Positions 5,361 to 44,164 of a DNA stretch of 64,000 bases are shown here, piece after piece. The position numbers and the translations under genes are program-made. The DNA comes from Lophium mytilinum (lineage: Eukaryota; Ascomycota; Dothideomycetes; Mytilinidiales; Mytilinidiaceae). The notes beneath the pieces are model-generated. The model was given only the letters and a program-made list of their open reading frames with translations, did not search any database and was not told the DNA's origin. The stretch spans positions 932,708 to 996,707 of the forward strand of contig MU004195.1 in assembly GCA_010093605.1 (NCBI GenBank). The letters are read 5' to 3'. Each line of letters begins with the position of its first letter. Positions within the stretch are counted from its first letter, which is position 1.

Positions 5361-8293
5361 CTAATCTGCCAAAGGGTCATTATCGGACCCACTGTCAGAA
5401 GATTCATCGTCGTGAATGCAGCATTCTCCGCATAACGGGTTTGTCGCATTGACCTTGATATCTCCCGCCCTGATCTTAAATTGTGCGATCCTGTTGAACA
5501 GTGTTCGAGCTGTCTGCCGTTTCTCGGGCTCTTCTTGAAGCATTCCGCTAATCCAGGTCTCCATAACCGCCAGAATATCTCGTGGCACGTCTTTAGCGAT
5601 CTCCGATGATGCCAACTCGGTCAACCAGTCTGATATGGACGGTAGGTTTTCATAGAATCGATGGCTCTCCGTCCTAGATTTGAAGAACTGGCGCATTTCA
5701 TGTACTGACCTAAGAAGAAATACACTCCACATCTCCAGGAAAACACATCCTAGAGACCATATGTCGGATGACGAATTCCGCTTCTCATAACGAGCGACTT
5801 CAGGCGCACAGTACACAAGGCTCTTGGCTGTGTCCTGCGTCGTGGTACTTCTAGTAAGACTTTCCCAGTCCAACGAAATGCCGAAGTCGGTGAGGAATAC
5901 CTTTCCGCCTTTGACTAGGATATTTTCCGGCTTGATATCCCGATGCCGGATTTTGGAGTCGTGGAGATAGCTCAAGGCACCAGCGAGGCATCCGAAGAAG
6001 GTGGGGAAGGACCGAAGCCTCGACGGCTCGCTTTTTAAAAAATCGTAAAAAGCAGCGAGGTTGTATTCCGCCACAGGGGCTAGGATAATGCCGAAGTACT
6101 TGGAGTCAGTATAACTAGCGATCTGCAGGGCGTTAGTCACGGTGCCACGCATCCTTTGTTGATATAATGTACCAATTCCACGCAATGGCTGTGTCGGATT
6201 CGCTTCAAAATCTCCAGCTCGTTCTTGAAGCTTTTCAATTGGCTGTTGCTGAATTGACCACGGCCTCGGCGAAATCGTTTCCTTGCAAATTCGCGACCAC
6301 TCAGTGAACTCACCACCTTGTCCACGTACCCATAACCGCCTTCGCCAAGCTTTTCTCTTTCGGTGAACGGGAAGACCTCATTCTTTCCGAAGTGCGCATG
6401 CCTCGCCAAACTCGAATTCTCCATGTCGACCGCTTTGGTGAGGACCATTTTCTGTGTCTCGAGGAATTGGTCACGAAGCGAAACACTGAGGCTGCGAGGG
6501 AGCAAGTTGCTGCCTAAGGGTAGCCAAACGTCGTTGATACCTTGGTCGATGAACGTGTCAAGATCTTGTAGCTGACCGATGCGGCGGAGTACGATGTATA
6601 TTCGAGGCGAGTGGCTCCAAGCATGCCTCCCGCTTTCTTTTAAGAGATGGGCAATGTGAAAACAGTCGGCATCAGAATAAGATACTTGAGAGTCAGTGAA
6701 ATAGCTGCCAAGAGTTTTGCCCGGGTTACTGTTCGAGGAAGAGGCTGGTGATTCTAGGGCTGGTGGCGAAGAGTGTTTTTCGGGTGCTGCTAATGATGAA
6801 GATGAGGACAAGCCTCTCCTGGTCTCGAGGTTTGGCCTTTCTTTGTGAGACCCAGCAATAAGCTCACTACAATTCTCGGTACGGTGAGTTCCCGTTTGAG
6901 GAAGCAAATCTGAGGAAACGCTAGATTGCCGATTTTGAGACCCTAAAAATGGGTTCTTGGAACGAACGATGTTTGGGAGTTGCTCGTCAGTCATTTGTGG
7001 CGAGACGTGTTCGCTATTGGCGATTGTCTCCGAGCTGAAGGGCGTAGCGCGAGGGGTTGGGTGAACCCAGGTTTGGATACCCGTACTGGTTTGGACGTAG
7101 TAGTACTCTTGATACCTGTTCATAAAACAACGGTAAGCAAAAGTGAGCCTATTCTGGTGGGAGCGGCGAAGCCTCTATTCTGGTCCTCAATGAACAAAAG
7201 TACGCCAGCGAAAACCATAATACTTTAAGAGCATTGTCGAGAGATCGATGAACTCACTCTTCAGACCAATGGGCAGTCCACCCTGAAGGCAAACTTGGGA
7301 GCAACCTGGAGCCTTTTCGATGGGCAGTCCGCACTGGAGGTAAACTTGGGAAGTCCTTGCTCAAAAGCGCCGATCTGTACATGTTGGACCAATCATCAGA
7401 GCTATCAAACTGATTCGGATGGGATTGATCAGAATCCTGTAGGCCCTTTGCAACCTGAACATCGCGAAAAGAGTTAATTTCGTTTTGCTGCAGCTCCTGA
7501 CGGCGCCTCTCTTCCTCCTCTTGACTCAGCTTTATGGCTAACTGAAGTTCAACCTCCTCTGAAGTTACCCGACCCTCCTTGACTGCGTCTTCCAGAAGGG
7601 CCCCACCTTTAATCAGTGTCCCACCAAGGGTCCGAGGAGAAGGTAAAGGTTTAGAGTATTGAGCTCCACCGTATTTTCTGAGGTGCCGTTCCCGTGCACA
7701 GAGAAGTCGTTCGTCGTCCATGATAAACGCCGTGAGGTCCTTCGCGTAAACTCGTACTTTGTGAGGCTATTTATCATACCGCTGCCATGTGTTGTAGATG
7801 ATTCCAATTACCATCATGCCCCACATCGCGGCCCTCATCGTCAATATACAGAAACTCTTGGGGAGCTTTTAAGATATGTATGTTTTTTCGAGCCCATGTC
7901 ACGCATAGTGTCTTGTCCTCGCGCACGATGTAATCAAGCACTTTCAGAGATTTGAGGACATGACGCCAGTTTCTCCCCTTATCTTGAAGCCGAGCGTCAA
8001 GGGTGTCCATAACCTGATAGAATTCGATTGAACTGTATTCCAATAGTTAGAGGAGCTGGCGAGTCACTGAACAATTTGCAGTACATACTGATTATGAGTG
8101 AACTGTGCTATTTCCGCCAGCTGAGTCTCGTCAGGAGTTCTCCATGGATCATTGCAAGTTGCTAACGCAGTAAGTTTATGCTCGAACGGATCCATAGATT
8201 GAACTTGTGTAGTCTCATACCATCACGAACTTTGATTTCTACAGCTGAATAGCCCTTGGTCACGTTTTTAACGGACCTGAGCAGCTTGGACAT
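5361..8293 (-). CDS. ENTH-UIM-WW-protein kinase fusion
   Basis: Six exons in one frame (8293-8221, 8161-8089, 8032-7812, 7756-7258, 7115-6173, 6122-5361) encode 856 residues. Residues 1-150 are a canonical epsin ENTH domain (MSKLLRSVKNVTKGYS, GRNWRHVLKSLKVLDY), which binds phosphoinositides at endocytic membranes. Residues 188-208 form a ubiquitin-interacting motif (EEVELQLAIKLSQEE). A WW domain spans 275-308 (LPSGWTAHW, YYYVQTSTGIQTWVHP) and straddles the fourth intron. Residues 430-535 match the helical segment typical of an expanded fungal kinase family (HFGKNEVFPF). The kinase looks active: Gly loop GEGGYGYV near 546, ARKRF lysine near 568, HRD near 663, DFG near 682, APE near 709. Introns are 50-59 bp except the one inside the WW domain (142 bp). 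The alternative is two genes (epsin-like and WW-kinase) whose transcripts read through, but the split WW domain argues for one. Confidence 0.8.
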
Positions 8294-8952: not shown

Positions 8953-9030
8953 CCCGATCCCCCTCAGGCCTCTAATTTCCTCATGGGAGTTCGACAGGAG
9001 TTGATTAAAAATCGCAACCGACATTGCATT

Positions 9031-9840
9031 ATGGCTGGGAGGTGATCAACAACTGCAGCATCGTCTACTATGGGAGGTGGAGGTCCGTGTGGTGGATCAA
9101 CAACAGCATGTCCCCTACGTAATGGGGTGCAGTGCTGGTGGTGCATCAAAAAGGGTATGCGCAGAATGTCATGGGTGGAGTGCTGGCGGATCAAGAACAG
9201 CTATCAGTAAGCTCTATGGCTGGGAGGTGATCAACAACCGCCAGCTGCGTATGATATGGGAGGAGGAGGTTGGTGTGATGGATCACGGAGTGCTGGTGGT
9301 AGATCAAAACGGTCCTGTGTCGAATGTTATGGGTGGAGTGCTGGTGGTAGATCAAAAGGCGCATGCATTGAAATGGAATGGGTGGAGTGCTGGCGGTGGA
9401 TCAACCCCGACCGCGAAGAATGCGATGGGTGCAGTGCTAGTGGATCAAAATGAGATCATAGGAGACTTGATGGGTGGTGGGGATCAAATCCACACATCGT
9501 CCATCGCTATGGAGGGAGTCGTGGTGGGAATAAAACTTTGTAATCGGTCCCGCTCCATGGGTGGAGTGGTCGTCGTTGGGAATCAAACCCTAAAGCAGCA
9601 TATGCTATATGGTTGGAGTAGTGGTCGCTGTGAATCAAATCTCCTGCGCCGAGGACGCCATGGGCGGAGGGGGGTAGGAGTGTTCAAAGATATGGGAAGG
9701 ACTTTCTATGGAGTGGAGGTGCAGGCTGGTGGAGGATCAACACCTCCGGGCAAAAATCCAGATGGGAGGAGGTTGGGAGTGGGTGTTCAACAGAGCAGCT
9801 TCAGGCCCGCGATGGAGCTGGGTGGAGTGGTGCGAGACTT
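9031..9840 (+). repeat. Degenerate tandem array, left (plus) arm, about 16 units
   Basis: About sixteen imperfect units of roughly 40-70 bases follow each other. Each begins ATGG and has a core close to ATGGGTGGAGTGCTGGTGG followed by GATCAA, then 15-25 variable bases. Two units (9031 and about 9213) are nearly identical over ATGGCTGGGAGGTGATCAAC. A 305-codon frame from 9077 runs through much of the array, and a second frame (9256-9453) gives a shorter YGWSAGGRSK repeat, but unit lengths are not multiples of three, so no single frame keeps the repeat. A noncoding or decayed repeat is therefore more likely than a repeat protein. Confidence 0.7.
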
Positions 9841-10087
9841 CTGTGATTATGATGTGGAGCACCGCGTTTCAGTGTCGAACGACAACTTCGAGAAGAGAAG
9901 GGGTATGTATGACACAGTTTCGTTGGAAAGGATTAATATCAACCTTCCGAGTGCTCTCACCAAGTCCAACACTGTGAGAGATGATAAATACTAAGATCGC
10001 TTGATGATGGGTGCTTTCAGTCTTATACAAGATGATTACAACGAAAGGAACAGAATGATGAAGATCATTAACTCAGTGGTGTGCAGA

Positions 10088-23909: not shown

Positions 23910-26900
23910 TCACACCGCTCCACTCCTCAACGCCGCAAACGCACTAATCATCGCCGGCGTCACATGAATCGCCAACGGCGCCGCCGCCGTACTCGAAAAC
24001 AAAAACACATACCTCACCATCACAGTCCCAGGATCTTTAATCACATGAATACCCGGAGAGACACTATTCCCGTTGCCCGCGAGCTCACACCCCAGCAACA
24101 CACGATGATTGTGGAAGCTCGAGTTCCGCCATGACGCCTGCAGCGGCGAATACGAGAACGACGTCCCCGGATCCTCAGCCATGTAGATTCCGTTCCCATG
24201 GGCCGCGCCTGTGCGTTGGAGCGTCGTCCCGCTGCAGATCTTGAGGCCTTGGGAGAGGATCGCGGGCAGGCGGTCGAGGGACGTGCCGTGGAAGAGGACC
24301 TTGGTGGTGCCGTTGCGGCCGACGCGGGTGGCGAAGGCGGCTTCAAGTTCGGGCGCGGCGTTGGCGAGAACGAATTGGTGGACGCCAGGCATATTAGGGA
24401 TCTTCAGGATGCCAGAGGTGGATGCAAGATAGCCGCGGTAGCTGCTCAATACCCACGTGATGAGTTGCTCAGCGGAGCTATGGGAGGCGCGGAGAGCGGT
24501 GGAGACGTCTATAGCCTTCCAGTTTGTGGATGTCATGGCCGGGAGGGCGTTTAGGATGGTGGTTACGGTGGGTAGGCTACTGACGGCGCAGCCAGGGAGG
24601 AGGTCAGCGCGGCCGGATTGCGCTGCGGCGAAGACCCCAAAGAGCAGCATGTCGACGACGTTGCGGTCGGTGCGGATGTCGGTAAGGCGGACATCGGCGC
24701 CTGCACGATTCCAGACGGTGGTGCAAACTGCTTTTTGGCAGGCGATAGGCCGGCGGAGGCGAGCCTGACGGGCTCCATGGGGCGCTCCACAAACGATGCA
24801 GCTGTAGGCGAGATCGTTGATTTGCTGGGTGATGTATTTATGAATGTTTTGTAGAGAGGTGTATCCAGAGTTTTTCAGATGGCGTGCTACTATGCGAGAT
24901 AGTTGCCAGGTCATACGGGTGCTACGTCCGTGGCAAGAAGGCCTTTCAGGCTCGGCAGCCTCTCGAAAGACCACCCAGGGGTAGTGTTCATCTAATGATT
25001 CCGCGACCTTGTCGTCTCCGAGGTGTATGCAGAAGCCTGGCGGAAGGTCTCCAATGGTGTCTATGACCAGTCGTACAATCACGCTTTGTGCCTCGCCAGC
25101 TCCTAGAGCAGCCTTCTCAAGATCCGAAAGATGGCTGATTGGGAAGCTCATCTCGACCTCTTGATCACCATATCGCTCAATCAGATCCATCAGCTCTGAC
25201 GGTAAGTCGTCAAACTCATCGTCCAAGGGAGACGAGTCTTCAATTCCTAGAGATGCCAGTAAAGCCGCAGTCCCTTTCGGGTCTCGCGCTTTGAGTCCTC
25301 CTCGAAGACTATCCAGACGTGTCGCTTCTTTCAATACTTCTGCCACCTGTGCCTCAATATAGGCCGCCGCAGCCTCCACTTTCTCATTCGATTGCACCTC
25401 GCTAACTTCTAAATGAAGTACTGTAGCAAGTGCTTTTACGGCCTCTTTATCATCTTTCTCCAGGTCCTGGATCCAACCGGTCAGGAAGACTTCTACTATA
25501 GCGGCAGGCGTTTCCTGGTGTAAGTCTATTAGACCTTGGTAGACTTCAACGCCTTCGGGAGAGCTAGTACTCAAAGCGCAGATGGCCTTGGAGACATCGG
25601 TAACATTATCTCCATTTTCAACTAAGCGTTGGATGGTCCAATACATCGGAGTTTCGTAGAGGCTTCCCTGGTGCATGTATTTCTTGACGGAATCCAGGAT
25701 GCGAGTCAGATCCGCACGGTCCGTTTCTCTGCCAAATAATATGCAACGGAGTGGCGGTGCTCCCTTTTGGTCGGGTGAAATTAACATTTTTTCCAGATGT
25801 GTAATTACGGGGACATAATCGGCGAGACAATGGGCCCAAGTGTGGAGAGCTGGCTGCAATGGGGCGGGAGAGATCGAGGTCGATGTAGGGATGATGTCGC
25901 CAAAGATAGTGCTGAGGTTCCAAAGTAACTGAAGCCATTCTTTTGCTCTGAGTTTTTCAAGCGCAAATGGAAGTATGGCATCGTCTCGTTGCTCGATGTA
26001 TTGAAAGAGAATCCACCGCCAGCATTCGACGATGTCAGCATCATCAATCTTAGCCAAAAGATCAACTAAGATAATGCATGCGCTGTCCGGATCTTTCTGG
26101 TGTTTCCACATGCAGGCGCCCAAATTTTCAGCAGTGGTGTTAGTTAGAATCATTACCTGGTCCAAGCATCGGGTGCGAAGATCAGTCTCTATTGCCGCAT
26201 TTCCGGCCACTAGGAGGCTTAATCCGCGCCGAGGCGAGTCGGAGGCTGTAGCTTTCCATATCAGAGTCAGGGAGTCTAGCAATTTGGCGGAGGGAGCGTC
26301 CAGTCTGCCGGGCTTGATGAGACGATCCATAAAGAACATATCGATGACCTGGGTCAAGGGAACAGGTGTAGCTTTCTTTAAGTTATCACCTCGAGACTCG
26401 GCTCTTATCTCAAGTAAAGTAAGAGTATGAGCTTCGGATGGCCAGGCACTCAGCAGAGTGCGAAGAGATACATCGAGGAGCGGGTGTAGTGTAGAGGCAT
26501 CTTGTGCAGTTTTGCCGAACTTCTGTAGCTCGAGGATGATTCTTGTGCTCGGGCTGCCATCGGTGAGTGACTTGTGGACCCGAACTTGCATCTCATGAAT
26601 ACAATTCTGTACGCCTTTCGTGATATAAGGGCAAAGGACACCACGAAGAAGTTCGCTGCTCGGATCCTCGAGGGCTGGGAGCAGTCTATTCATGGATTCC
26701 CACTGGTTTTGGCCAAGTTGGTCTCTATCGGTGACAACTTTTAACACAGATGGAATGACCGAAGGGTCCGCAAGTTTACTGGTTCCTATTAGTATCTGGA
26801 GAGCTTCCTGGGTGACATGCTTTCCTGCGCAAAGGTGCACAAAAAGCTCGATCGAATCCATTCCAGCCTTGCACACAGTCTCAAGACAAGTTGAGAGCCG

Positions 26901-27887
26901 ATTGAGGATAGTCTTAAATTCATCAGCCGTCTGAGTCTTGACTTCGATGCTGAGTGTCCCATAGCGCACGTGCGTCTGGCTGATCTCGGTGATGCAAGTT
27001 ACAAGGGCCTCCCTTATCGACGAATATCTTTTACCCAAGAAGTCGGGACCCTCGAGTGCCAGCATGTCGTGGAGAACACCTCTTGTGTGGCTAGGGAGGC
27101 TCTCTAAGAGACGTAGTCTATCCAGGTCCGGTTTCCACAAGGCCCATATCCTCCAGCTAGGCAGTTGGCTGTCCAAAAGCTGTTCCGGCCCCAGACTATG
27201 GGACGGTGGCGAAGGATTGTTGAGCAGTTTTGAAAGCCATACCACGGCTGCATGTGCGGCTACCCATTGATTTTTCAACTTGAAGCCTTCTAAGCTAGAA
27301 GCAAAGTCGACCAGAGCCCTGCGAGTTAAAAAGGCGAAGTTAGGCAGAGACTGGAGGTTCTGCAAGGATTTGTCCCTCAGAATGTTGGTGACCCCATCAA
27401 GGAATCGCACTGCGGCTTGTGGACCGGGAGAGGCGTAAGGGACCAACCCTCTCGCCCACCTGGCCTCTAGATCCGACACTGTGCCGAGCTGCCCTCGATA
27501 GTTGACTGCGATTAGGGACTGAAGATACGCATATAGACCGTAATAGGTGACTGGAGCGACGTTGGTCTCAACGTTGAGCAGGATTCGCAGGGCCTGCGAG
27601 GACATGGCAAATGCACACGCGGCGATAGCGACATCTCGGTCATCATAATCGTCTACCAACGCAGCGAGCTTGAAATCGCGTTCCGCTGGGGTGATTTTCC
27701 CTTTTTTCTTCAGATAAAGATCTGTGTGGGCTTGAAGTTGGTCCCACGGGAAATTGGGGCTCGAAGGGTGCTCGTGGTTCGCCGTGGCGGTGACCTTCGA
27801 TCAGTTAGCTTTGCGCAGTTATGAAAGAAGAAACGAAGTTACCTGAATCTTCCAGCCATCGCTCTTTCTCTTGCCGAATAAGACCAT
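23910..27887 (-). CDS. Large PARP6/8-like ADP-ribosyltransferase
   Basis: Exon 1 is 27887-27843 (MVLFGKRKSDGWKIQ) and exon 2 is 27794-23910, with a 48-bp intron carrying a CTAAC branch site; together 1,309 residues. The first ~900 residues are helical with no named domain. From about residue 1014 a Cys-rich segment (CIVCGAPHG, then two further Cys) leads into a PARP catalytic domain at about 1181-1290: VLFHGTSLDRLPAILSQGLK, HGNGIYMAED, VMVRYVFLF. This layout is that of PARP6/PARP8, mono-ADP-ribosyltransferases. His and Tyr of the H-Y-E triad are present; I see no Glu at the third position, as expected for the mono-type. Many fungal relatives carry a UBC/RWD-like region; segment LVIDTIGDLPPGFCIHLG may be its remnant. 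The start was chosen because it alone gives an ATG, good splice sites and frame. Confidence 0.85.
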
Positions 27888-38128: not shown

Positions 38129-38911
38129 CACCATCTCCACATCGGGAACGTTCGTCAGGGTGGCAGGAATCTATGTGTCGATGAAGTTCGATCTGAATCT
38201 GATCATTGTGCAACCTGGGAGCAGTGTAAACACCTGGAATATCGAATACCGTTGTTAATTCTGGGGTTGAAGTTCCGTCGGTGAGGCCTAGGGCTTGGCG
38301 CTGCTAGGCTGCTTTTAGAATGGCGCGTGTTCTATTCTAACGGCTTCAGCACATCCCTGAAGACCTCCTGCTGTCAACAACCTTGGACATCACAGCTCCA
38401 AACCTGCCCCTTCACACGACCCAGCTCTCTCTTTCCTCATTTTCCTTGTCTCAGGATTGCTTGGTGTCTTTCTACAGCGTGCACGCATACTCTCCTACTA
38501 GTGGTTCTCGTGCATCCTCAGCTCGACTTGCCACCTAGGCTGCGAGATACGTCAGCTTAAAGCGAATGTTCGAGAGACAACTCAGCCACGGTTCCACTCT
38601 CTCACCCAATATTTCCTACCTTGGGGACGCTCCAGTGGAGCCTCTGAATACATATTCAGAGCCAAGTACCTCCCCCATCATCTAGATTATCATCATCACC
38701 CCGGCAGCTTCCTCTTCTATAAAACTACGCCTCGCACCGACCCCCCGTACGGAGCTATTGCTCATCATTATTAGCAGGCCGTTGATCGGTTCTGCCGCTT
38801 TGGACGACGCCAGCCAGCGTGCTCCGCGACTACCGCTTCAAGGCCCTGTTCAGATTTTGATCAAATTAACTGTCTGGGGTGCCAACGTGCTACTCTTATC
38901 TACTTGTAGCT
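38129..38911. other. Divergent promoter region
   Basis: About 780 bases separate two divergently transcribed large genes (Trs120 and the ATPase/protease-like gene), so it probably holds both promoters. C/T-rich patches occur on the plus strand near 38360-38540. Short plus frames are unsupported. Confidence 0.5.
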
Positions 38912-41900
38912 ATGGCCACTATGGATTTTGCGCGACTGCGCAACCAGGCTATGAACGATGGCCAAGACAGTGAAGTCACCGTGAACACACGAGCGCTCAT
39001 AGACAAAGTCTTGGCGCGTTACTCTTCCGAACACACGACGCTGAGAGAACTGATACAAAACGCCTCCGACGCTGGAGCAAGCACTGTCGTCATAAAGTAC
39101 GAGACAGATCCATCCCTAAATGTCCCCGCGCCGCAATCCTCTGATGAGTCCGTACTGCTAAAGCACGTGATTCAGCATCACACGCTTAGACGACTTACTG
39201 TTTCCAACAACGGACAGCCATTCTCGAACGCAGACTGGAGTCGACTGAAGAGCATCGCAGACGGGAACCCCGATGAAACTAAAATTGGAGCGTTCGGAGT
39301 CGGCTTTTATAGCGTCTTTGCCGACTGCGATGAGCCTTTTGTTGTATCAGGAAATAAGATGATGGCTTTTTACTGGAAAGGGAATACACTTTCGACGAAG
39401 GTCGCGGTTTTGAGTCCTGAACAGTCTTCGTCCGACACGACCTTCTCCCTGAAATATCGTCAAGCCAACCCTTCGTCACCCTCTTACAATCCCTCCAAGG
39501 CGCCCAACCTCCCCTCACTATGCCAATTTCTCTCCACTAGCCTTACTTTTGTTGGGCTTAGCTCGATAGAGCTACACCTGGATGGTCATAAGATTGCCTC
39601 TTTTGGAAAGAAAACGTCTCCACCTTCGGACATCCAAATTCCTGCTGGCTTAAATCCCAAAACCGAAGGTGGCCTCATGACAGTATCACGGGTATCCCGG
39701 CAGAGCTCACAGATAGATTCTGTGTGGAGTAATGTTATAGCTACCGCACAGAATCCTGCTAGACGCGTCGTTGATGCAGTACCTGCAGAAATAAAGAACG
39801 CGGGCTCTTCTTTAAAAAGTTTCTTCTCGAAACTTTCAGGAAATGCACAGACGAATTCTAGAGCGGCAAGACCTCTTATTCCCGTCGAAAAGCCTGTCAC
39901 ATTTGGAGAGGATATCTCGGGTGAATCTCGTGCGGTCATTTTCTTGCAAGTCTGTACCGTAGAGGCCGACACGCATGTGACACGTGGATTCTCTGCCGAG
40001 ATTGAACGAGCAACCAAGAAGCCGCCACCAAAGAAGACAAAAGTTGCGCTACTGACGTCTCCTTTCCAAGAGATATCAGAATCCCTTTCAACGGCGTCCG
40101 GCACAACATCCGGGCTCTCGGCAAAAATCTTTGCTGACATCCTTCCCACGAATGCTGGCCGGATCTTCATTGGATTTCCGACCGCTCAAACCACTGGCAT
40201 TTTAGCGCACGTATCCGCGCCTTCTTTAATTCCCACTGTGGAGCGGGAAAGCATCGATCTCAATGCTCGTTACATAAGTAACTGGAATTACGAGCTTTTG
40301 AGGGTCGCTGGATTGGCGGCCCGCATTTCCTACGTGCTGGATATATCCGAGATCAAAGCTAAGACCGCAAGCGACGGTACTGGTGTGCCTTCTTTGATAC
40401 CAAAGGCAGCCTATGTACTTCAGCAGTACAGTTCCAGTCTCTCAGCTCCGTCAGGACTAGTCGGACAGACGATCGAAGATGCGTTCTGGTCTTGCAGCAA
40501 GGAGCGTTCCATCGATATATTATCCTCGAAAGGTGTTCTGCCGAGCAAATCTGTTCGAATGCCTGCTGAGACTTTGAGTTTCCTGGGTGAAGTTCCGATG
40601 GTACCTCAAGAATTAGCAACTGGGGCCATGGCGTTTATGCTTAGCCTCCACAACCGCGGATTTATTTCTGATTTGACTATGGAAGATATCAGAAAGGGCC
40701 TTGAAGCACGTGCCTTGACCGATACAGAGCTCATGGAGTTTCTCAAATGGTGCAGTAGCAAGCTGGACTCCGGAGAACTGGATCCCCCTAGTGTACGAAA
40801 TCTCTTTGCCGTTACCATTGCTGCTTTACAGGATAACAGCACGGATGCTGGTTCTGGCACTATCCTTCAACTATCCACAGTTGAGAGCTATGTCAACTCT
40901 TCGCGAATCAATCCCACTTTGCCAATTCCATCCTGGACGATGCCGTTCAAATTCACGAACTCGATTCCTGTCAAGCAACTACAGATGTTCGGGTGGCAAG
41001 AGTTGTCCATCGTGGGCTGGCTTCGATTCATGACTAGCGGGAACAATCTCGCCAATCTCCTGGCATCCGAAAGTCTGGCTACTCAAACTCTTACACTGAT
41101 TTCCAAAGGCTGGGACCAGATAGATGTAAGTTCGAAGGAAGCCGTGCGAAACATTCTCGCCCCGCACCCCGTTTTACCAACCAAAATGGGAATGAGGCGT
41201 CCAGAAGAGGCCTATTTCACAACGGTCAAACTTTTTGACGACCTTCCGACGGTGAAGCCGTTTCCAGGAGTAAAAGATAAGTTTCTCCTGGCTCTTGGAG
41301 TACGTAAGACGATCGAGCTATCCGTTGTGTTCGAGCGAATGAAAGCGCCCCAAGGCGGTCAAGATGCCAAGATCAGCTGGAGCCATATGGAACTCATTCG
41401 CTATTTTGCCTCCGTGCTGCAGGAAATTCCACAGCAAGACTTGGAGCGTCTACGAGAGACAGCCTTTCTCCCCGGAATTGGTTCTGCATCGAAACCAGAT
41501 CAGCTGTTCAAGGCCAGAGATCTGTATGCGCCCGCTCCTTCCATCGGCGCCCTAGGCTTAACGCAAATCAAACTACCTCAAGAGCTCCAATCACAGCCTC
41601 GCGAAAAGAAGTTCCTTCTCGCTCTTGGATTGATGGAATACCCATCCGCTTTGACCATAATAAAAATAATGGAAGGGGCGGGCCGAACCAATAATCGTCA
41701 TCTTTACGATCTTTCGTTGGTATACTTTTTGCAGAACTACTTTGTCAATGGATACGAGAAGGACAAAGCAAAGATATCTACGCTTAAGATTCCGTTCCTG
41801 CCAACCGAGCAAGTCGACTTCCCAACTCTCGTAGCGCCGTTCCAGTGCTACAGCAATGAGGCCGCCGATTGTTTTGGTTATGCAATCATCCGAGCTGATA

Positions 41901-44164
41901 TATCTCCACACGCAGATAAACTTGGGCTACAAAGGGACCCTCCGATCAGGGATGTCGTGCAAAAGCTGTTGTCGCAGCCTGTTAAGAGCAAGATTGAGGC
42001 CGAAGTCAAATTCTCGTATATAGCCACCAGATTAGGGGATCTAGATTTCACCAAACCCATGTTGACAAGTTTGAGTAGCGCCAAGATCGTTCCTATCTTC
42101 AGGAAGTACCATAGCGCTGGAGGATTCGATGGCCTCAAGGAGAAACAGTCCGGTATCTCGGAGATGCGGATACATCACTATGTGTCCCCAAACTCGGTCT
42201 TCCTCGGTATGGATCAGGAGTATCGCGACTTGATCGAGTACGTCCAGTACGGACCAGAAGCAACGACTTTTCTTCTGAAAGCCGGCGCCAAGCATGAGCC
42301 TTCTATATCCGAGCTCGCGAGGCTTCTAGCTGAGAACCCACCCAAGTTTCTCAGTACTATGGGACATGAAAAGTATCTTGGTCTACTGAGGAAGCTTGCA
42401 GAACAGGCTTCCCAGCTCTGGAAAGACAAATCGTTGGCAGATACACTCCGAAAATCCAAGATCCTACTTGGCTACAAGGATATCAAGACCGAAACGAAGA
42501 AAGAGTATGCCGATGATGACAATTATGAAGACGACGACGTTGCGGGCCTTCGTGAATGGCTATTAGTCAGCGGAAACGAGGTCACAATAATAGACGAAGT
42601 ACATTGGTATTCAAAGTTCCGGGATTATCTCATCGCAGCGCCACAAGAGGAGGTCTTGGAAACCTTCTATGAGAAATTTGGTGCAAAGAAAATCTCAGAC
42701 CAGGTGAAAGAAGAGCCGCGGATCGGAAATCCTCTCCGCGACCAAAAGTCTGCCTTGAAGCTGCAGGAAGCAATCTTCGAACGAAGTAGGCTCTTTCTCC
42801 ACGAATACGAGAGGGATGCATCTTCTCATGTGGTGCGCCATGACGCTAAGTGGCTCACCTCGAATCTGAAGGTTGAACTTGTCTCGTGAGTTCTGAGCAC
42901 GAACATTTCTTCTCACATGGTACTGACTCATATGATACATAGGGACATTTCGATACGCGTCTCGCTGCTAGACCACAACGTTGCCTATTCCCAGCGACGC
43001 ACCGCTTTCATCCGCCGTAGTGGCAGGCATCAGCGCATACTCTCCATTGTTCAGAAATACGACCACTACGACGTCAGCAGTCAGCTTATCCCTCTATTGA
43101 TCAAGCGTCCGAAGCAAAACGATGTGATTGCACTGGAGCAGATCCTGACTGAACCTCTTCGACGACTGCAACAGAAAGGCATTAACGTGGAGCGAATCCT
43201 TCGCAAGCAAGAGTACGAAGCGCGCATAGCGCAGCAACAAGAACTGAAACGTCAGGGCGAAGAGAACGCTCGAAGGGCAGAGGAGTTGAAAAGGAATCCC
43301 ATTCAGGAACAGCCCGCCAACGGTCACGTCAAAGAGCAACCTTATGAGGAGCCGTCTCGCAATGAGCTAGAATCCCCAGATCCAGCACCAACCATGCCCG
43401 GTGCCTTCGGCAGTCCCGAGCAGCCTCAACCCTCGGCTCCTCTAAACAGAAACCAACCTGCTCACAAGAACCTCTTCAATAAGTTTGCCAAGACCCTCGG
43501 CTTCGAACAAGACAAGCGGCTCTCATCCACCAACCCTCCCCAGATCTCAAAAGACCTCCAAGCCACCAAGAAGAACATCCAAAACGCCATCAGCGAGTGC
43601 CGCCCCGCGGGCCGCGACGTAATCGACTCCAAGCACCACGCCGACGCGACTGAGCTAGACAAAGGCGGCTACTGCAACGACGAGCAGGCCGAGAACATCG
43701 CGAAAGCGTACACTGTTCCCATCGACGGCATCAGCATTGATGTATACTTCGGCAAGTTCCAGCTTGAAAAACCGAGAGATATCGAGGAGCCCATTTCCGC
43801 CTTCCTGCCCCTCATCCTCTCTCTCACCAAGATTTTCGGCGTCGATCCGTCTGCTATCAATATCTTCCTCGATAGCAAGTCGAATACGGTCGCTTTCAAT
43901 CTCTCGGGCTCGCTCTTCTTCAATTTGGCTTGGTTCATGGAGCTGCACTGGAGTGAGTGGGGGACGGAGGCCGGGAAGAATAGGGCGTGGGATGCGTGGT
44001 ACCTGACGTACTGCCATGAGCTAGCGCATAACCTGGTGAAGGATCACAACGCGAGGCATCAGTGGTACCAGCAGCAGATTGCGGTCGAGTTTGCGAGGGG
44101 TTTCAGGACGAGATTAGGTGCGTACTTAGGAGGAGAGAAGACCCAGGCGAGTTTGCTCGACTAG
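38912..44164 (+). CDS. Sacsin-like HSP90-type ATPase protein with C-terminal HExxHxxxxxH motif
   Basis: Exons 38912-42885 and 42943-44164 (57-bp intron) give 1,731 residues. The start (GCTATGGCC) is preferred over an ATG 33 bp upstream by context. Residues 20-190 carry the GHKL/HSP90 ATP-binding fold: RELIQNASDAGAS with the catalytic Glu and Mg-binding Asn, DGNPDETKIGAFGVGFYS with the glycine-rich lid. This matches the fungal DUF3684 group related to sacsin and plant NO VEIN. The middle is long and helical. After a coiled-coil (about 1400-1440, rich in Gln, Glu, Lys, Arg) and a Pro-rich linker comes a conserved C-terminal domain holding HELAHNLVKDH at about 1683, with a third His at the metzincin/Wss1 spacing. 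Chaperone-like ATPase plus possible metalloprotease is inferred; no activity is known to me. Confidence 0.88.

Follow-up and report, generated by a model that had tools for sequence, protein, structure and literature searches.

A stretch of 64,000 nucleotides from Lophium mytilinum (the window) carries on its minus strand a gene that looks intact and that is predicted to encode, in this filamentous fungus, a protein with the ENTH-UIM front half of an epsin, followed by a WW domain and a protein kinase. The fusion probably brings a kinase activity to places where membrane is taken up, and its epsin part, to judge from the residues kept and lost, is probably a diverged copy that serves as an address label rather than as a working coat epsin. 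In the reading that we favor, to which we give about an even chance, a single cytosolic protein would be recruited by this borrowed front end to PI(4,5)P2-rich plasma membrane and to ubiquitin-marked cargo. The gene and its features, in window coordinates, are as follows:

5361..8293, minus strand: whole gene; start codon at 8293, stop ends at 5361
8293-8221, 8161-8089, 8032-7812, 7756-7258, 7115-6173 and 6122-5361, minus strand: coding exons
8293-8252, minus strand: amphipathic N-terminal helix, immediately preceding the ENTH domain
7704..8251, minus strand: ENTH domain (Pfam PF01417), residues 15-140, exons 1-4
7515..7562, minus strand: ubiquitin-interacting motif (UIM), residues 188-203; below the cut-off of Pfam PF02809, in agreement with the core pattern
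7269..7351, minus strand: a 32-nt stretch present in two imperfect copies, 51 nt (17 codons) apart, 88% identity
7058..7292, minus strand: WW domain, residues 278-308, split by intron 4
7116..7257, minus strand: intron 4, 142 nt, inside the WW domain
6947..6955, minus strand: NPF tripeptide, residues 343-345, a possible EH-domain ligand
6365..6661, minus strand: pre-kinase segment, residues 441-539, with no known domain
5493..6364, minus strand: protein kinase domain (Pfam PF00069), residues 540-813, with intron 5 (6172-6123) inside

Splicing of the six exons yields a single open frame of 856 residues with no broken codon or splice site, and the span, exon joins and protein length of the original prediction were all reproduced exactly. 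The five introns, each of them GT-AG, measure 59, 56, 55, 142 and 50 nt in exon order, and a branch-point-like hexamer from our own loose list lies 10-33 nt upstream of the end of every one. The start codon stands in the context CAAGATG, with A at position -3. A pseudogene reading was set aside because the frame is unbroken, and an assembly-join artefact because the window contains no N and the WW domain is coherent across intron 4.

Three arguments bear on the unity of the gene. The first is the WW domain itself, which intron 4 splits, in confirmation of the earlier claim that the junction of exons 4 and 5 falls inside it: exon 4 holds the end of the ENTH domain, then the UIM and the first part of the WW domain, and exon 5 holds the remainder of the WW domain and the start of the kinase. 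With the two exons joined, the domain scores 31.8 bits in the full protein over profile positions 1-31 (cut-off 26.9) and 36.4 bits in a 79-residue piece, and the 31-residue match contains the two Trp and the terminal Pro of the WW signature. Exon 5 alone reaches 15.8 bits against the 31.8 of the joined exons and covers profile positions 11-31 only, so a split into two genes is hard to make. The second argument is the openness of the connecting stretches under dinucleotide shuffling, where residues 141-277 stay open in 15 of 5000 shuffles and residues 309-539 in 2 of 5000; the Ser-rich residues 309-440, taken alone, do so in 79 of 5000. Codon usage, scored with twelve other open frames of the window as the training set and with six frames ranked over seven segments, is the weakest of the three. 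The annotated frame ranks first in five of the seven segments with several small margins (0.064 versus 0.062 for residues 141-277), and second in the WW segment of 31 codons. It is also second in the linker 309-440 (0.030 versus 0.052), which codon usage cannot tell from non-coding DNA and whose coding status consequently rests on the open frame. A single frame, a WW domain dependent on splicing and connecting stretches open beyond chance uphold the view that the epsin half cannot easily be separated from the kinase half.

The ENTH domain is Ent1/Ent2-like but divergent, as far as its sequence tells. It lies at the N terminus, as in epsins, and scores 123.5 bits in the spliced protein (Pfam cut-off 24); its best match in the PDB is 5ucc (E=1.3e-41), and Ent1/Ent2-type chains outrank mammalian epsin 1, epsinR and Ent3. 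It was aligned with chains taken as Candida albicans Ent2 (CaEnt2), Saccharomyces cerevisiae Ent1 and Ent2, rat epsin 1 and human epsinR, and over the domain it is 51% identical to the presumed CaEnt2 chain and 46% identical to Ent1. The helical moment of residues 2-13 ranks third among the 845 windows of the protein, and the moment of this first helix is 0.76, as compared with 0.63-0.74 in three known epsins.

Lipid-binding residues were taken from sections of PMC8129110 and PMC10128014. Five of the six that could be mapped are kept (K10, R24, N29, R62 and H72), as in PIP2-binding ENTH domains, and the sixth, K61, is replaced by Ala; K3 was left unmapped because the reference chain entered the alignment from residue 4. 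At the position equivalent to rat K69, which we take to be a lipid residue as well, the protein has Arg. The kept residues are weak proof of function, given that changes of R62 and H72 still allow partial complementation in yeast and Candida, as described in sections of PMC10128014.

The patch that contacts protein partners is altered. The window protein has His (H101) at Y100, where every one of the five reference domains has Tyr, and Ala (A105) at T104, which is Thr in four references and Ser in the fifth. At these two partner-contact residues it departs from Ent1/Ent2-type epsins. L105, identical in all five references, is Pro, and E54 is replaced by Gln; E107 and F108 are kept. Of the 36 columns on which the five references agree, the window ENTH deviates at 10, more than any reference in a leave-one-out count, where each of the three yeast epsins deviates at 2 of 28, rat epsin 1 at 4 of 30 and epsinR at 8 of 34. 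Because the yeast references resemble one another closely, their counts come out low, and the comparison leans towards calling the window domain divergent. According to sections of PMC10128014 and PMC8129110, Y100 and T104 are required for Ent1/CaEnt2 function: tests in yeast and Candida show that epsin function is abolished by Y100R and by T104D, and Y100R blocks Sla2-epsin assembly. Since these papers tested Y100R and T104D, whereas the window protein carries Y100H and T104A, we only infer a loss of partner binding. The placement of the protein on PIP2-rich membrane, suggested earlier, remains plausible because the lipid pocket is mostly retained, with the qualification that the domain is divergent and that Y100 and T104, through which epsins contact Sla2/Rga2, are changed. 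The occurrence of changed Y100/T104 beside kept lipid residues may help to part the membrane-binding role of ENTH domains from their partner-binding role.

Short motifs behind the ENTH domain agree in part with an epsin. Residues 188-203 fit the UIM core pattern L..A[ILVM]..S..[DE], for which 0.015 matches are expected from composition; the predicted motif is therefore present by its core, but it is single and remains under the Pfam cut-off of 21, scoring 12.9 bits when the full protein is searched and 15.6 with the exon-4 frame. The NPF tripeptide lies in the linker (0.058 expected from composition), and the single DPW sits within the ENTH domain. The clathrin-box pattern L[LIVMF].[LIVMF][DE] finds no match in the whole protein, a divergent box being possible, and neither a Prk1-type site nor PPxY is found in it by pattern. 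CaEnt2 is described in sections of PMC10128014 with two UIMs and two NPF motifs, against one UIM below the Pfam cut-off and one NPF here.

The kinase domain is recognized at 147.5 bits in the spliced protein (cut-off 31.7). Eleven catalytic positions, chosen by eye from the sequence, all hold the expected residue (G546, K568, E588, H663, D665, K667, N670, D682, E711, D723 and R805). The motif set previously claimed, from Gly loop and Lys to HRD, DFG and APE, was located in full, with the VAIK Lys, the aC Glu, the aF Asp and the aI Arg likewise present. Among the best 60 of 2496 PDB matches, the nearest are CDK2 chains, accompanied by CDK3, CDC2-like and NEK kinases and by one entry labelled rhodanese family protein; the names AAK1, GAK or Ark1 do not occur among these 60. 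The top NCBIfam match, the MAD6 defence kinase (93.9 bits, cut-off 460), was read as general kinase similarity and rejected as an assignment.

The helical pre-kinase segment of the original prediction is weakly suggested by a model of residues 430-603 alone, which is mainly helical but has a pLDDT of 42, a quality too poor for fold search; a 118-residue piece spanning most of residues 441-539 has no Pfam match. The large fungal kinase family with which this segment had been associated may correspond to the unclassified, expanded kinases of filamentous ascomycetes, likened here by description only. Sections of PMC6001611 give an average of 41 unclassified kinases for Fusarium genomes, and the main text of that kinome paper names neither the ENTH nor the WW domain, both of which the window protein has.

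Directly visible are the single reading frame, its domains, and the residues for catalysis and lipid binding; the location, activity and substrates of the protein we infer. The first helix of the ENTH domain, given its conserved residues, would fold into the PIP2 bilayer. The UIM may then strengthen binding to ubiquitinated cargo, and the NPF binding to EH-domain scaffolds, as their motifs suggest, and the WW domain would dock a proline-containing partner or substrate. Finally the kinase, whose catalytic residues are in place, would phosphorylate local coat or cargo proteins. Most of the membrane pocket, the helix, the UIM, the NPF and the catalytic residues are kept, and the partner patch and the clathrin box are changed, a pattern that suggests reuse of the epsin end as an address for the kinase. 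Because the Sla2/Rga2-binding residues are changed and a clathrin box was not found, an address label is probably a better description than a working coat epsin. The predicted epsin-plus-kinase architecture stands insofar as ENTH, WW and kinase occur in one protein, but to describe it as an epsin with an appended kinase would miss the divergence of its ENTH domain and the change of its Sla2/Rga2 contact residues.

In yeast, endocytic adaptors and the kinases acting on them are separate proteins, and a natural fusion would offer a one-gene handle on the placement of kinase activity at ubiquitin-marked, PIP2-rich membrane. With Ent1/Ent2-type epsins the window protein shares the N-terminal ENTH domain with most PIP2 residues, a UIM and an NPF; it differs from them by the added WW domain and kinase, the changed Y100/T104, the single copies of UIM and NPF and the lack of a clathrin box by pattern. 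The Ark1/Prk1/Akl1 kinases (AAK1/GAK) are, to our knowledge, separate proteins without ENTH or UIM. As proposed, the window kinase would resemble them in acting at endocytic sites on coat proteins, the role described for them in sections of PMC5359421.

This resemblance also underlies an alternative that we consider unlikely, namely a working epsin that still builds clathrin coats and whose in-cis kinase replaces separate Ark1/Prk1/Akl1 kinases by phosphorylating coat proteins for release. It agrees with the retained ENTH-UIM-NPF order of epsins and with the listing of yeast Ent1, Ent2, Sla1 and Pan1 as substrates of Akl1/Prk1-type kinases in sections of PMC5359421. In addition, sections of PMC10128014 report that C. 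albicans without Ent2 regained normal endocytosis when given an ENTH domain alone, which makes a missing clathrin box compatible with a role in uptake. Against it stand the change of both residues needed for Ent1/CaEnt2 function (Y100 and T104; sections of PMC10128014 and PMC8129110), the lack of a clathrin box and of a Prk1-type site by pattern, single copies of UIM and NPF where CaEnt2 has two of each (PMC10128014, in part), and the absence of AAK1/GAK from the best 60 of 2496 PDB kinase matches.

Scans for relatives outside the fungi are uninformative for a fungal gene. The 64-kb window contains no second ENTH domain or related kinase at E up to 1. When prokaryote contigs were scanned with the full protein, one of 30 pattern matches was confirmed, a bacterial kinase with 29% identity over residues 539-736. 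In viral contigs, 18 loci were confirmed with the kinase half as query, each aligned within the kinase domain, and the ENTH alignment gave 202 pattern matches, none of them confirmed. The absence of ENTH from one bacterial genome and from all 14 control genomes is uninformative. The lack of ENTH relatives in the prokaryote and viral collections is as expected for a gene of fungal origin.

Against the literature covered, the ENTH-kinase combination would be the new element. An exact-phrase search for ENTH-kinase and epsin-kinase names returned no papers, and no such fusion is reported among the listed titles and abstract beginnings, which also covered queries on fungal kinase content and on ENTH/WW combinations. 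ENTH is absent from the main text, as distinct from the supplements, of all but one of the domain and kinome papers examined, PMC3019232 and PMC6001611 among them; in the exception, PMC1079808, it occurs once in the main text, in a domain list. A dual-kinase protein of Phytophthora infestans also carries a WW domain (PMC3019232, in part), in a paper whose main text, unlike the window protein, is without ENTH. A WW domain on a kinase is thus already known from an oomycete (sections of PMC3019232), and the fusion of ENTH to a kinase would be what is added.

It is a bolder and improbable extension of the address-label reading that the gene represents a conserved fungal class of epsin-kinases, freed from coat building by the loss of Sla2/Rga2 contacts, in which the splicing of intron 4 would choose between a short ENTH-UIM form and the kinase form. 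If so, ubiquitinated cargo would directly switch on local phosphorylation. The splicing element can also be taken by itself, as one gene with two products: the full kinase protein when intron 4 is spliced, and an ENTH-UIM protein without the complete WW domain or the kinase when it is retained. Retention leads to an immediate stop and a protein of 289 residues, and intron 4 is the longest of the five, at 142 nt versus 50-59 nt in the others. We regard this choice of products as doubtful, since an early stop follows from nearly any retained intron, which makes the argument weak, and the retained form might simply be degraded.

At the border of the WW domain, the duplicated 32-nt stretch is in frame and copies the WW start without its Trp, which hints at how this border may have arisen. 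Together with the divergence of the ENTH domain, this partial tandem duplication would suit a recent, perhaps species-private fusion in which a duplicated epsin segment landed before a WW-kinase gene and is now drifting with no settled function. We find such an origin rather improbable, given six exons free of broken codons and splice sites, and given that catalytic and most lipid residues are kept while partner contacts are changed, which looks like selective retention.

Two genes or a mis-joined model, with a promoter or ATG of the kinase's own in or after intron 4, would accommodate the presence, in the last bases of that intron, of an ATG that shares the frame of the kinase half, and also the linker 309-440 without clear codon bias, but such an arrangement is very unlikely because the separate kinase protein would start with half a WW domain whose score doubles on joining, and because the connecting stretches are open far beyond chance (15/5000 and 2/5000 shuffles).

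The surroundings of the gene look unexceptional. Pfam families recognized in 26 further open frames of the window include TRAPPC9/Trs120, DUF3684, LtrA and DUF7730, a content from which we would read an ordinary filamentous-ascomycete chromosome. Just upstream of the epsin-kinase gene, at 9005-9994, lies an imperfect minisatellite with a 48-nt unit (GGAGTGCTGGTGGTAGATCAAAA...), called by TRF at 9287-9404 and contained in a plus-strand open frame of 329 codons. A small neighbor gene on the minus strand at 5058-4587 (exons 5058-4887 and 4825-4587, intron 4886-4826) encodes 136 residues with no Pfam match; it has two similar stretches, RPAVTINNAGGQVNI and WRIFVINNSSGSVNIGG, which presumably resemble the repeat motifs of fungal signalling amyloids. 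Farther away, the plus strand at 38870-44164 encodes a DUF3684 protein of 1339 aa that includes a sacsin-type ATPase domain, directly followed by a 424-codon frame without family match, and the minus strand at 23910-27800 holds an open frame of 1296 residues with a match to the PARP catalytic domain near its end (39.9 bits).
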